DNA of 26,974 nt, taken from a virus. Every line of letters starts with the position of its first letter. The first letter of the stretch is position 1. The notes under the pieces are model-generated. The model was not told the origin of the DNA and did no database searches. It saw only the letters and a list, made by a program, of their open reading frames with translations. Positions 5,226 through 20,927 of the stretch are shown here, one piece after another. Position numbers and translations under genes: made by a program. Location of the stretch: positions 1 to 26,974 of the IMG/VR virus record IMGVR_UViG_3300024999_000333, one strand, 5' to 3'.

Positions 5226-6032
5226 TTAATATTTTAATAAATTATAAATTGTACCTCGTTTATAACATTTAATATTAACCTTGATAATTTCAATGGGCAA
5301 ATATTTACTGATTTTCTTTTCATTTTCTAAACCAATAACATTCTCCTTTCCTAGCAACATGATAGCTAAATAAAGGATTCCTGAATCAGTGGAAATGACC
5401 TTTCTACTTTTTTTTATTTCATTTATAATCAACCCAAGATCGGGTTTTTGAAAACGCAGAGAGTTGACATTATCAGCAAGTGGGAATTCGTCAGGTACTT
5501 GTAACCCTTCACGATAGTAGTCAGTGATAAAACCAACTCTCTGATACAACTCAAAAGGATTATAACCAGCTTGTTGAATCTCTTCCCAAATACTATATGC
5601 GGTTGTCAAAGAACAAAACTTAGATTCTTTATTACTGCCCGTAATTCCAAAAAAATTAATACCTATCTGTTTACTGTTTTCATTATTTAATTCTGTTTTA
5701 AATTGGTATGGTTCCCATACAAAATCTTTTAAACCAAATTCATTGATTGCACATTCGTAGGGTTTAGATAACTCTCCTTGTGGTTCCCTATAAGCAACTC
5801 GATGAATAAAGGAATAACGTGATTTAACATCATCCCTCATTTTGTCAATTGAAACCACATTAGGAAATAATAGTTGAAATTGCCGTTTATTTTCTACACC
5901 TAAATCAATTCGTTTACCAGTTATTCTGCAAATCTCTTTATATATGGGAAAAAACTGAATTATATCACCTAGACCATGCCTGAAAGATAAAAGACTACGT
6001 TGTTCATTCTTTAACCTGTCTATTAACCTCAT
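5226..6032 (-). CDS. GT9-like glycosyltransferase (heptosyltransferase fold)
   Basis: This 268-residue protein begins with the family's N-terminal signature (SFRHGLGDIIQFFPIYKEI). Near the end, STDSGILYLAIMLLG matches the donor-binding region, usually written DSGxxHLA. The family transfers heptose or related sugars from nucleotide-activated donors, mainly onto lipopolysaccharide. The His of that motif is Tyr here, so the donor or activity may differ. The frame is open to TTG 6053, but ATG 6032 is preferred because it follows GAGGC at good spacing. It sits directly after a second GT9-like gene and downstream of fibre genes, so a virion protein, phage DNA or the host surface are all possible substrates. 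Confidence 0.7.
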   Translation of the reverse strand: MRLIDRLKNEQRSLLSFRHGLGDIIQFFPIYKEICRITGKRIDLGVENKRQFQLLFPNVVSIDKMRDDVKSRYSFIHRVAYREPQGELSKPYECAINEFGLKDFVWEPYQFKTELNNENSKQIGINFFGITGSNKESKFCSLTTAYSIWEEIQQAGYNPFELYQRVGFITDYYREGLQVPDEFPLADNVNSLRFQKPDLGLIINEIKKSRKVISTDSGILYLAIMLLGKENVIGLENEKKISKYLPIEIIKVNIKCYKRGTIYNLLKY

Positions 6033-6094
6033 TTCTGCCTCTATTAAATTCAAGTAATATTATCATGTTATCTTTTCTTTTGCCAACCAAAATA

Positions 6095-7003
6095 TTAGTA
6101 TCTTCCTTCATACTTTAAAACAATATCTACAATTTGTTTTGGGTTAATTAATTGCATACAACCGCTAATACCTTTTTGGTAATCATAATTTTCACAATCT
6201 TGAATGGTTTTTTTCCAACAAGCAGTTTCTTTACAGCATTCAAGGAAACCAATAGAATGAAGATAATGTTGTTTTGGATAACTATATAGGTGATTTCCTT
6301 CTCTGGAACCGGCAACAGTGATACAGGGTTTATTTAAAGCTGCCGCCAAATGAGTTTGTAAAGACACATGCCCAATCATTCCTCTTGATAATAAAGCAAC
6401 AGCAAAATACTCTCTGAGATTTAATTTTCCAACCAGAGAAATTATATTTTTTAAACAAGGATTAAGTGCTGTGCTATCTCCGGTTTGCACAATATTAATA
6501 TTATTTTCTTTAGCCAGATTACAAAATTCCTGCCAACGTTTTGCGGAATAATTTTTTAACGGTATATCTTGTTTAATGGCTGGTGATAATAACCAAAACT
6601 TTTCTGGTATGTTTTGTTTTTCCAATATTTCTTTAGCTTTAGTTATTTCTTCTACAGTAATAGTTAAGTGTGGTCTACAATCGGTTAATTCAATGTTTAA
6701 ATTTAGTTTTTTGTTTACTTCATTGATGTAAAATTCTGCAAAATGTTTTCCCGAAGTTTTTCTATGCTGAAAATTATCTCCGTAATCAATATCAATTATT
6801 GGTATATTTTGGTGTTTATCATATAAATCAAACAAGGTAATAAATTGATTATTATAATAAACTTCGGGGTAATATGTTGCTATTCCTGTTTGATGTTGTT
6901 GTGGATATTGTTTATGTAATTCTCTAATTGTGGTGGTAAATATTAAATTGTCACCTATTGCTCGTTTATTTCTAAATATTAGTTTTTTCATATTGTTTAT
7001 CAT
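6095..7003 (-). CDS. GT9-family glycosyltransferase (ADP-heptose:LPS heptosyltransferase-like)
   Basis: This 302-residue protein has the GT9 layout: the N-terminal FRNKRAIGDNLIFTTTIREL (the GD-x(3)-TT/P type signature) and the C-terminal GHVSLQTHLAAALNKPCITV. A Cys-rich segment ends it (CCKETAC, then C and CM), as in many bacterial family members. The start at ATG 7003 overlaps the stop of the upstream lectin-like gene by ATGA; a second ATG at 6991 is also possible. Together with the next gene it forms a glycosyltransferase pair between the fibre genes and the lysis genes. The sugar and acceptor are not determined. Confidence 0.8.
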   Translation of the reverse strand: MINNMKKLIFRNKRAIGDNLIFTTTIRELHKQYPQQHQTGIATYYPEVYYNNQFITLFDLYDKHQNIPIIDIDYGDNFQHRKTSGKHFAEFYINEVNKKLNLNIELTDCRPHLTITVEEITKAKEILEKQNIPEKFWLLSPAIKQDIPLKNYSAKRWQEFCNLAKENNINIVQTGDSTALNPCLKNIISLVGKLNLREYFAVALLSRGMIGHVSLQTHLAAALNKPCITVAGSREGNHLYSYPKQHYLHSIGFLECCKETACWKKTIQDCENYDYQKGISGCMQLINPKQIVDIVLKYEGRY

Positions 7004-18235: not shown

Positions 18236-18903
18236 TCATCGTTTAAAACGTAATAATCGTTCTTTCCAGTCAGGCTCAGGTTTGGTGTTTTCCAATACCG
18301 CCACAACACCATGATTATTCATAATTTCCTGAAAACGTTTTTCCAAAGCATCTATCAGTTTTTTATTACCAGAAAAGGCGGCGTTCATTTCGGCTATCCG
18401 AGAAGTGCGTTCCCTGATTTCCTCCAATTCTGCCGCCTTTCTGACAATCTTGTATTGGGAATAAGGTAAATCCTGTATATCCTTTAAACTTATTCCCCCG
18501 TCAAATGCTTTGATAATTTGAATATATTCCCGAACCTGACTTACTGCTTTTTTTCTTCAGGAGTATCTTCCTTAATTCCAGAAATACATTCATTGATAAG
18601 TTTGACAACCGCCAAACTAACTTTCATCGGCCACTGAGAAACCATTTCTTCCGTCACTGCATTACCCTGTTCATCCACAACAATTGCACAAATAAACTTA
18701 TTCTGTTCATCAACAAAATTAAATTCTTCCTCTTGTTTCAGTTCATCACTAGCAAATTCAGGTTTATCCTTGTTAGTTTTTTTACCCATTTTAAACAGTT
18801 TTTCAGCCTTCTCATTGGAAATTGCCGGGATTACATAGGTATTACCTTTAAAGCTAAACTTGGTGTCCTGCGCCAGATCATCAAAACTTTTAATTTCACT
18901 CAT
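18236..18903 (-). CDS. Tail assembly chaperone gpG-T frameshift fusion, 222 aa
   Basis: A -1 slip at 18547-18553 joins the first 119 residues of the chaperone to a second open frame (18547 to 18236) of 103 codons that has no ATG start of its own. The junction reads EEKK then AVSQVREYIQII, and the product ends in KERLLRFKR. The second frame opens just before the slip site and closes 21 bases before the tape measure start. This is the G/GT arrangement known from lambda and most long-tailed phages, where a minority fusion product guides tape measure and tube assembly. Frameshifting efficiency is not known. Confidence 0.85.
18541..18903 (-). CDS. Tail assembly chaperone (gpG-like), 120 aa
   Basis: This is the zero-frame product of the chaperone pair. 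ATG 18903 is preferred over an upstream in-frame ATG (18954) because GGAGA precedes it, and the longer form would run into the binding site region after the endonuclease gene. The N-terminus (MSEIKSFDDLAQDTKFSFKG) and the regular alpha/beta composition fit the family. The last codons are GAA GAA AAA AAG CAG TAA, which place the slippery heptamer two codons before the stop. It should coat the tape measure during tail assembly. Confidence 0.85.
   Translation of the reverse strand: MSEIKSFDDLAQDTKFSFKGNTYVIPAISNEKAEKLFKMGKKTNKDKPEFASDELKQEEEFNFVDEQNKFICAIVVDEQGNAVTEEMVSQWPMKVSLAVVKLINECISGIKEDTPEEKKQ
18547..18573 (-). promoter_or_regulatory. Programmed -1 frameshift site
   Basis: The heptamer A AAA AAG (18553-18547) is in the correct phase with the zero-frame codons GAA AAA AAG. 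After a one-base slip, translation continues GCA GTA AGT into the long second frame. AAGGAAG (18573-18567), about 13 bases upstream, could act as an internal Shine-Dalgarno-like stimulator, as in dnaX. No clear downstream stem-loop was seen by eye. Confidence 0.85.
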
Positions 18904-18931: not shown

Positions 18932-20278
18932 TTAGCTACCAATGGTTGTTCCACGCCTTAATGTTACCTTTCTTAATCTTTTAAACGTCCATCCCTTATG
19001 TTGTTTTGCCTTTCCATCCAAACACTCATATACACGTGAAGAATTTAAACTGTACCTCTCCGAAAATTCTGCTACATTCTTTTCTTTTGTTTCAATTCCT
19101 TCTGGTGATATAGCAATAAATTCCCTAACTCTTCTTGTGTTCTTTAATTGTTCTGTAAGTTCTATAAAACAACAATTTTCTTTATAGTAGCTCCCATTTA
19201 CATTAATTCTTTCAATACTTGGCCTTTTTATTTTTAATTGTTTAATTGCATACAAATATTTAAAATACATATCCTTTTTGAAGTTTTCAAAATATTTCCA
19301 ACGTGGATCATAACTTATGCCTCTACCACCGTAGTTCTGATAGGCTTTTAAATTTGAATTGCTGCATCTTGCTTTGATATTTCTCCACATTAAATAAAAT
19401 TTCATTTTTCCTTCAGAATAGTTAGTATTCCAAAACCCATGTTTTTTATTTTTTGTGTATTCAGCATGTAAATCACAATCAGCATTTGAATCATTTATCA
19501 TATCAACATCTTCTAGAAATATATTATTCTTACCACAACAAGAGCAGGAGCATCTCCATCTACCATCACCTTTATACTCCAAAATCGTCAGTTTTCCAAT
19601 GGTACAACCAACAAAATTGTTATGTCTTTCTCTCAAACAACCACAACTTTTAACCCGTCCTGCTTTTAAATTATTAGATTTAGCAATAATGGTATTTCCA
19701 CATTTACACACACACAACCATTTACGTAAACCAAGATATTTTTCAGCAGTTAATTTACCAAATCTTTTTCCACTCAAATCATCATATTTCTTTGCACTCA
19801 AACAACCACAACTACTGACATTACCTTTTTTTAAATGTGACGAATGTGCTTTTTTACTTTTACCGCAATCACATATACATAACCAGTAACGATCACCGAT
19901 ATATTTTTCAGCAGTTAATTTACCAAATCTTTTTCCACTCAAATCATCATATTTGGTAATACAGCCACAACTCTTTGTATCTCCTCTTTTTAAATGTGCC
20001 GCAGATATATTTTTTATATTTCCACAATCACAAATACATTCCCAAAATAATTTACCAACGTATTTTGACACAACCAACTTCCCAAATCTTTTTCCACTCA
20101 AATCATCATATTTGGTAATACAGCCACAACTCTTTGTATCTCCTGTGGTCAAATTTCTTGTATCCGTTGTTTTAACTCCACCACAGTCACACACACATAA
20201 CCACTTACTACTTCCAACATACTCTTTAACGACCAACTTCCCAAATCTTTTGCCTATTAATTGTTTATATTTTCCCAT
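18932..20278 (-). CDS. Homing-endonuclease-like protein with five tandem zinc modules
   Basis: This 448-residue protein has five repeats of about 50 residues (starting near 5, 58, 111, 166 and 219). Each reads GKRFGKL, a CxCxCG cluster, then SCGC, and each probably binds zinc. A nuclease-like domain follows (about 294-382: YLMWRNIKARC, YQNYGGRGI, then RINVNGSYYKENCC). It matches the YGGRGI/RID-G-Y-NC pattern of phage HNH-type homing endonucleases. The C-terminal 386-434 segment, ending HKGWTFKRL, is like NUMOD/IENR DNA-binding motifs. AGAGG precedes ATG 20278. It separates the tail tube from the tail chaperone and probably arrived by horizontal transfer. Cleavage activity is inferred. Confidence 0.75.
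   Translation of the reverse strand: MGKYKQLIGKRFGKLVVKEYVGSSKWLCVCDCGGVKTTDTRNLTTGDTKSCGCITKYDDLSGKRFGKLVVSKYVGKLFWECICDCGNIKNISAAHLKRGDTKSCGCITKYDDLSGKRFGKLTAEKYIGDRYWLCICDCGKSKKAHSSHLKKGNVSSCGCLSAKKYDDLSGKRFGKLTAEKYLGLRKWLCVCKCGNTIIAKSNNLKAGRVKSCGCLRERHNNFVGCTIGKLTILEYKGDGRWRCSCSCCGKNNIFLEDVDMINDSNADCDLHAEYTKNKKHGFWNTNYSEGKMKFYLMWRNIKARCSNSNLKAYQNYGGRGISYDPRWKYFENFKKDMYFKYLYAIKQLKIKRPSIERINVNGSYYKENCCFIELTEQLKNTRRVREFIAISPEGIETKEKNVAEFSERYSLNSSRVYECLDGKAKQHKGWTFKRLRKVTLRRGTTIGS
19735..20144. repeat. Near-identical DNA repeats inside the zinc-module gene
   Basis: A block of 63 bases at 19923-19985 recurs exactly at 20082-20144. A related block of about 50 bases near 19735-19788 recurs near 19900-19953. 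The spacing (about 159-165 bases) equals one zinc module, so whole modules were duplicated, and recently enough that silent positions still match. Confidence 0.85.
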
Positions 20279-20308
20279 TTTGTATTCCTCTTGCCCAGTT
20301 ATTTTTAT

Positions 20309-20337
20309 AAAAGGGTAGATTTAGTTTCTACCCTTTT
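20309..20337. terminator. Hairpin terminator after the tail tube gene
   Basis: A perfect 10-base stem (AAAAGGGTAG and complement) with a 9-base loop; the arms end in A4/T4, so it can work in both directions. It lies between the tail tube stop and the endonuclease start. Transcripts from the tail tube would end or be attenuated here. Confidence 0.75.
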
Positions 20338-20341
20338 AACT

Positions 20342-20370
20342 ACTCTAAAATAACTTTAACAAGAAGTCAA
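20342..20370 (-). promoter_or_regulatory. Possible sigma70-type promoter for the endonuclease gene
   Basis: On the minus strand TTGACT (20370-20365) and TAGAGT (20347-20342) are separated by exactly 17 bases. The -35 matches the consensus in five of six positions and the -10 in four of six. Initiation would fall inside the hairpin at 20309-20337, just ahead of the endonuclease gene. AT-rich sequence makes chance matches likely. Confidence 0.35.
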
Positions 20371-20414
20371 CACTAAACGAACCTAAAAGAGTACAGCTAC
20401 CCCTCTACATTCTG

Positions 20415-20927
20415 TTAAGGGCTACTGAACCCACCAACTCTAAAGAGTTGGTCCCCGCTAGTGCGGGAATCGTCAATCAATCCAACGAACTTACAAGCAA
20501 AGACTCTTTGCGAATCTGTAGTAAACGCAATTTCCACCGCACCACCAATATTCGGAGCAGCTTTATAAATCTGGAAAATATCGGAACCATCAATTGGCTC
20601 AATCACCAATTCACCCGTAATAATCGCCCCACCAACCGGCTTACCAAAGGTCAGGTAAGTAGTTTGATCAGTTGCCGAAGCAAACAACATTTTCAGGTTT
20701 TCAAACGTGGATTCCGTCAAATTAACCGTAACTTCCAGAACCAGACCAGCATCCAGTACCCGAACAGCAGTTTCCCCATACTGGTCAGATTTCAATTCAT
20801 AAACGTTTTGGGTAATGGAAATAGACACACCACCATAGGTGTGTCCAATATGCCTACCAGCAAAATAAATATACGCTGGACCAATGGAAATGTTATCGGA
20901 ATCAAATGCAGTTGCATATACAGTCAT
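20415..20927 (-). CDS. Major tail tube protein
   Basis: This 170-residue, beta-rich protein fits tail tube subunits of siphophages (SIGPAYIYFAGRHIGHTYGG near the start, TDSQRVFACKFVGLIDD near the end). It also fits the gene order: after the tail terminator and before the chaperone and tape measure. The open frame reaches a TTG at 20933, but ATG 20927 lies 7 bases after GGAG and is preferred. GC content is visibly higher than in its neighbours, as expected for a very abundant virion protein. Two hairpins overlap its last codons. Confidence 0.8.
   Translation of the reverse strand: MTVYATAFDSDNISIGPAYIYFAGRHIGHTYGGVSISITQNVYELKSDQYGETAVRVLDAGLVLEVTVNLTESTFENLKMLFASATDQTTYLTFGKPVGGAIITGELVIEPIDGSDIFQIYKAAPNIGGAVEIAFTTDSQRVFACKFVGLIDDSRTSGDQLFRVGGFSSP
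20433..20467. other. Two adjacent hairpins in the 3' end of the tail tube gene
   Basis: ACCAACTCT/AGAGTTGGT (20433-20452, perfect 9-base arms around AA) and CCCGC-TAGT-GCGGG (20454-20467) lie side by side within the final coding part. They are followed by the stop and then the terminator hairpin at 20309-20337. They may stabilise the 3' end of the messenger or slow ribosomes. No function is shown. Confidence 0.6.

Follow-up and report, generated by a model that had tools for sequence, protein, structure and literature searches.

The stretch of DNA analysed here, which we call the window, is a 26,974-base metagenome record of an uncultured phage in which the late genes lie on the minus strand and comprise a prohead protease, a major head protein (PHROG E 6e-41), head and tail joining genes, a tail-tube-like gene, a nuclease open reading frame (ORF), a chaperone and a tape measure of 1460 aa. 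The start, stop, strand and 448-aa length of ORF 18932–20278 are exactly those given in the first-pass annotation, which placed it between the tail tube and tail chaperone genes. That placement is borne out by the PHROG matches of the tube gene and by the slip site and -1 extension of the chaperone gene. The junction is composed as follows.

20415–20927, minus strand: tail-tube-like gene, the upstream flank, with a PHROG match to "protein with Ig domain" and a weak one to "major tail protein".
18932–20278, minus strand: probable homing endonuclease gene of the PHROG 374 family, 448 aa, from the ORF call and the PHROG match.
18541–18903, minus strand: putative tail assembly chaperone (gpG-like), the downstream flank.
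18547–18553, minus strand: terminal A AAA AAG slip site of the chaperone gene, for a gpGT-like -1 extension that reaches 18236; conserved in five phages.

A slip site with a -1 extension is a trait of tail assembly chaperones. PHROG profiles gave no match for 18541–18903, and its probable identity as the chaperone rests on its position and on the A AAA AAG slip, which together with a -1 extension some 100 codons long is kept in all five phages compared. The nuclease gene is intergenic, with its own start and stop, and an intron or intein reading was rejected, as an Rfam search found no group I or group II intron at the gene. A DNA-level comparison with isolated phages yielded no near relatives of the window. 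Elsewhere in the window, the tail region and the endolysin flank a glycosyltransferase family 9 gene (6095–7003, minus strand), and the adjoining gene at 5226–6053 has no Pfam match.

The N-terminal part of the nuclease protein is an array of zinc modules.

20114–20269, minus strand: zinc module 1, residues 4–55, canonical by strict motif.
19955–20110, minus strand: zinc module 2, residues 57–108, canonical by strict motif; DNA 68% identical to module 1.
19796–19951, minus strand: zinc module 3, residues 110–161, canonical by strict motif; DNA 70% identical to module 2.
19631–19786, minus strand: zinc module 4, residues 165–216, canonical; DNA 75% identical to module 3; pLDDT about 93–97.
19463–19624, minus strand: degenerate fifth module, residues 219–272, with low model confidence.

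Modules 1–4 each follow the pattern WxCxCxCG...SCGC at a spacing of 53–55 residues, and Tandem Repeats Finder reports a 159-base period in the array. The fifth reads RWRCSCSCCG...DCDLH and is 18–29% identical in protein, and 43–47% in DNA, to the other modules. Of the five zinc modules claimed in the first-pass annotation, four are thus canonical by the strict motif and carry complete Cys sets, and the fifth is degenerate, with CxCxCC followed by DCDLH instead of SCGC. The partial likeness of modules 1–4 at the DNA level would fit tandem duplication in place. Because the module adjoining the KHG motif is canonical in sister proteins, the degenerate module 5 of the window may be the original proximal module. 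Since the structure models represent the protein alone, without metal, we infer zinc binding by the modules from the Cys pattern. The Pfam CapR profile does not match the window protein at E 10 and matches 2 of 72 relatives, weakly.

Counted by motif, the 148 module-bearing ORFs in the fetched loci comprise 101 with one module, 30 with two, 14 with three and 3 with four; all 65 ORFs from bacterial genomes have a single module, and the viral part of the count, ranked by similarity to the window, is biased upward. The earlier statement that one or two modules are the rule therefore holds among these relatives (101 + 30 of 148). Long zinc arrays are not unique to the window protein: four modules are found on the same nuclease type in L069, and inspection by eye gives five in L078, whose nuclease is Vsr-like. 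Homing nucleases of phages were already known to carry such tandem modules: Barth et al. 2023 (PMC10448857) described the zinc fingers of T5orf172 homing nucleases as repeated like "beads on a string", with six repeat regions across the T5orf172-type genes of one phage, and deletion between repeats. Because of L069, L078 and the repeats of Barth et al., the window array sits at the long end of a range already known. The same zinc modules also occur on their own or fused to Vsr-like, DUF2726-like, other HNH or AP2 domains (L078, L093, L099, L087, L100, L232, L231, L233), with no nuclease in L231 and L233 and an AP2 domain in L232; they appear to be a shared phage DNA-binding cassette.

The C-terminal part of the protein contains two further domains.

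19118–19441, minus strand: HNH-type (beta-beta-alpha metal) nuclease domain, residues 280–387, with Arg357 at the catalytic His position; from profile alignment, the AF2 model and Foldseek.
18980–19117, minus strand: I-HmuI-like NUMOD DNA-binding domain, residues 388–433; from Pfam.

Both had been anticipated as an HNH-like domain and a NUMOD/IENR-like end, and both were recovered by profile and structure searches. PHROG 374, "HNH endonuclease", matches the protein in five stretches (E 5e-90), and Pfam I-HmuI_NUMOD-like (PF22083) matches over its full length at residues 388–433 with E 9e-6 and 25.6 bits, just under the cut-off of 27; the sister allele L024 reaches 27 bits. An AF2 model of residues 164–448, built from 72 sequences, has a mean pLDDT of 82, with about 94–98 in the nuclease domain and 92–95 in the NUMOD, module 4 being well modelled and module 5 and the linker poorly defined; a full-length model built from eight sequences is too weak for domain packing. 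Structure prediction thus confirms the nuclease fold of a homing family: in Foldseek the sole PDB match below 1e-3 is I-HmuI (1u3e; E 3e-5, probability 1.00), and hhalign relates the nuclease family to the I-HmuI group at 94.5% (E 8e-8). In two structure models Foldseek also returned the anti-CRISPR AcrVA3 (9kja) with probability 1.00 and a TM score of 0.58–0.60 of target, but with an E of about 0.05.

The active site departs from that of I-HmuI in one respect. Profile alignments set the D/E-R-I-D/N of the family against D74-H75 of I-HmuI, so that, at the position of the HNH general-base His, 71 of 72 family members have Arg (Arg357 in the window), whereas 8 of 8 members of the I-HmuI group have His (His75). 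The central asparagine, Asn368, is present in 72 of 72 members, and Asn380, Arg304 and the YGGRG motif are likewise invariant in these 72 sequences, which come from many phyla; Gln377 is found in 71 of 72 and the upstream His280 in 69 of 72. As the catalytic His is Arg family-wide, catalysis must differ from that of I-HmuI or be absent, and the label HNH describes fold and descent for this family, not proven chemistry.

Haplotypes collected from tail-tube relatives in IMG/VR comprise five tube/chaperone junctions, one empty and four occupied. In L026 the junction is empty, with 79 bp and a small hairpin between the genes; L027 has a 231-aa nuclease with one module, L029 a 285-aa nuclease with two, L024/L025 a 352-aa nuclease with three, and the window the 448-aa nuclease with 4+1. 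The earlier proposal that the gene interrupts the tail genes is supported by this one uninvaded relative, which also shows that the gene is not carried at the junction by all relatives. The nuclease gene is inserted after the post-tube hairpin and ahead of the ribosome site of the chaperone gene; L026, the sole empty junction found, is at 65–86% protein identity, which blurs the exact insertion boundaries. Further scans for chaperone junctions gave no new ones, and the other tube relatives (L028, L030–L047), in which the chaperone does not adjoin the tube as far as the sequence reaches, are uninformative on the junction. In a second phage group (L028, L034, L039, L040, L042, L046), a CxxCxxCC gene, YkgJ-like by eye, replaces the chaperone and comes directly after the tube or after one or two genes.

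In a tree of 60 nuclease domains the four junction alleles form one clade (98/91), whose sister is L048 (100/95), a one-module protein inserted after the major capsid gene of a related phage. In each of the four, the reading frame is open, and neither the canonical modules nor the invariant nuclease residues are damaged. Because the four nuclease domains form a single clade, the simplest reading would be that one homing lineage settled at the junction, or keeps re-homing there, while its module number changed, probably in part through tandem duplication in place. As one junction houses homologues that have 1, 2, 3 and 4+1 modules, the number of modules does not decide where the gene inserts. 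The shared insertion site therefore argues against the simple form of the idea that five modules lengthen the recognised site, although module number may still tune affinity, specificity or spacing. We also considered whether the 3' end of the tube gene is a homing site that has been recoded. Its last 26 codons (20415–20510, minus strand) show an excess of silent changes between the window and L025 (15/23 vs 37/140, p 4e-4), and the same trend is seen against the empty allele too, so that this candidate was set aside as only suggestive. The phages of L025 (G001) and L048 (G005) carry several genes of the nuclease family, at about four and six places respectively, some of which look shortened (L251, L252).

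Between the tube gene and the nuclease gene, the leader has the following predicted elements.

20283–20378, minus strand (approximate ends): leader hairpin from RNA folding, its 3' arm holding the ribosome-binding site.
20287–20294, minus strand: Shine-Dalgarno sequence GCAAGAGG of the nuclease gene; probability of being unpaired 0.007 in read-through RNA vs 0.885 in the putative own-promoter RNA.
20342–20370, minus strand: promoter-like TTGACT-17-TAGAGT within the hairpin's 5' arm; in this region, matches of this kind occur no more often than expected by chance.

The leaders of the four occupied alleles are predicted to fold much more stably than their shuffled versions (z -6.7, -7.6, -9.3 and -7.2), compared with z -2.5 for the empty allele L026. 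In the predicted outer stem the ribosome-site region pairs with a segment immediately 5' of the inner hairpin, and the stem sequences differ among alleles. Promoter-like hexamers, TTGACT/TAGAGT in the window, TTGACT/TATAAA in L025, TTGACT/TACAAA in L027 and TTTACA/TAGACT in L029, are so positioned in all four alleles that a transcript begun at them would be without the hairpin's 5' arm. The probability that the ribosome site is unpaired would accordingly rise from read-through RNA to RNA with its own start, from 0.007 to 0.89 in the window, 0.14 to 0.28 in L025, 0.04 to 0.97 in L027 and 0.28 to 0.70 in L029. When only the 5' flank is shuffled, hiding of the ribosome site has a combined p of 6e-4 and energy one of 2e-6, with no significance for the empty allele; the effect is strong in the window and L027 and weaker in L025 and L029, the start codon of L025 being uncertain. 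When 30 intergenic leaders from the phage group are ranked, the clade's five, L048 included, all fall within the top six (4e-5 by simple counting, with relatedness ignored). The most extreme fold of the 30 (z -9.2) is at L028 10503–10580, before a gene of unknown function. The hairpin was rejected as a trait of all family members, several of which lack it in the same phages, and those located away from structural genes are mostly without it. Since consensus promoters are not enriched over shuffled sequence in any allele, the dedicated promoter stays a hypothesis, suggested by position only.

Taken together, these observations make it very probable that the window gene encodes a free-standing homing endonuclease that belongs to a known family and carries a long array of zinc modules, as the match to the nuclease family, the uninvaded allele and the homologues at the same junction of related phages all indicate. 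In a mixed infection, the zinc modules and the NUMOD would bind the DNA of an uninvaded phage near the junction, the HNH-type domain would cut it there, and repair off the invaded genome would copy the nuclease gene across. According to RNA folding, the ribosome site would be hidden in the hairpin on late read-through mRNA from the tube gene and exposed on RNA begun at a promoter inside the 5' arm; the nuclease would therefore be made on its own schedule, with the essential tail genes disturbed little. We advance a further claim more tentatively, that a single lineage may be holding one junction with 1, 2, 3 and 4+1 modules in sister phages (one relative being empty), its array growing and shrinking while its home stays constant, and that it may be an HNH-fold enzyme with Arg for the catalytic His throughout a family of many phyla.

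Alternatively, the array could bind phage DNA, for example at the gene's own promoter or in the tube/chaperone region, and act as a repressor with a catalytically dead HNH-type domain. The Arg in place of the catalytic His across the family, the occurrence of the modules without a nuclease or with AP2, and the precedent of I-TevI, which doubles as an autorepressor (PMC2988022), are all compatible with such a regulator; we nevertheless regard it as unlikely, as the invariance of Asn368, Asn380, Arg304 and YGGRG suggests a kept function, and the coexistence of occupied and empty alleles fits mobility. Very unlikely is a stably inherited, moron-like accessory gene that has lost homing and whose module number drifts by repeat recombination without function: the junction clade does look like one settlement, module 5 is decayed and internal repeats recombine readily, as in ICP1 gp174 (PMC10448857), but all four alleles are intact and the close sister L048 lies at a different place, so that the lineage has moved.

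The alleles with 1, 2, 3 and 4+1 modules, together with the empty site, constitute a ready-made set for assessing the share of each module in target choice, a question usually approached by engineering only. The predicted hairpin with its internal promoter suggests that phages not of the T4 kind reached the same way of silencing a selfish gene in a late operon, and the missing catalytic His in a large family labelled "HNH endonuclease" poses a concrete biochemical question.

Several known systems share parts of this arrangement. A hairpin combined with a promoter has been reviewed for I-TevI, I-TevII, I-TevIII, segB and Aeh1 mobE (PMC2988022); in T4 segB, I-TevI and Aeh1 mobE, read-through RNA has its ribosome site masked by the hairpin and the promoter RNA lacks the hiding arm. 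The same is predicted for the window leader, where the arrangement is known from folding only and the phages are not T4-like. The T5orf172 (GIY-YIG) nucleases with CapR/DUF723 fingers resemble the window protein in their repeated modules, free-standing position in phages and recombination-variable repeat number (PMC10448857), but belong to another nuclease class and have a zinc motif of different sequence. I-HmuI of Bacillus phage SPO1 shares the HNH-type fold and the C-terminal NUMOD; it is intron-encoded, lacks zinc modules and has His75, whereas the window gene is free-standing, with modules, and its family has Arg at that position. Also similar are the PHROG 374 proteins gp35 of Pseudomonas phage 201phi2-1 and gp61 of Enterococcus phage EFP01, which are like the window protein in their modules and in the YGGRG/DRID/NC nuclease domain, with one or two modules compared with four plus one in the window, and within this family the C-terminal part varies, being AP2-like by eye in gp35 and NUMOD-like in the window protein.
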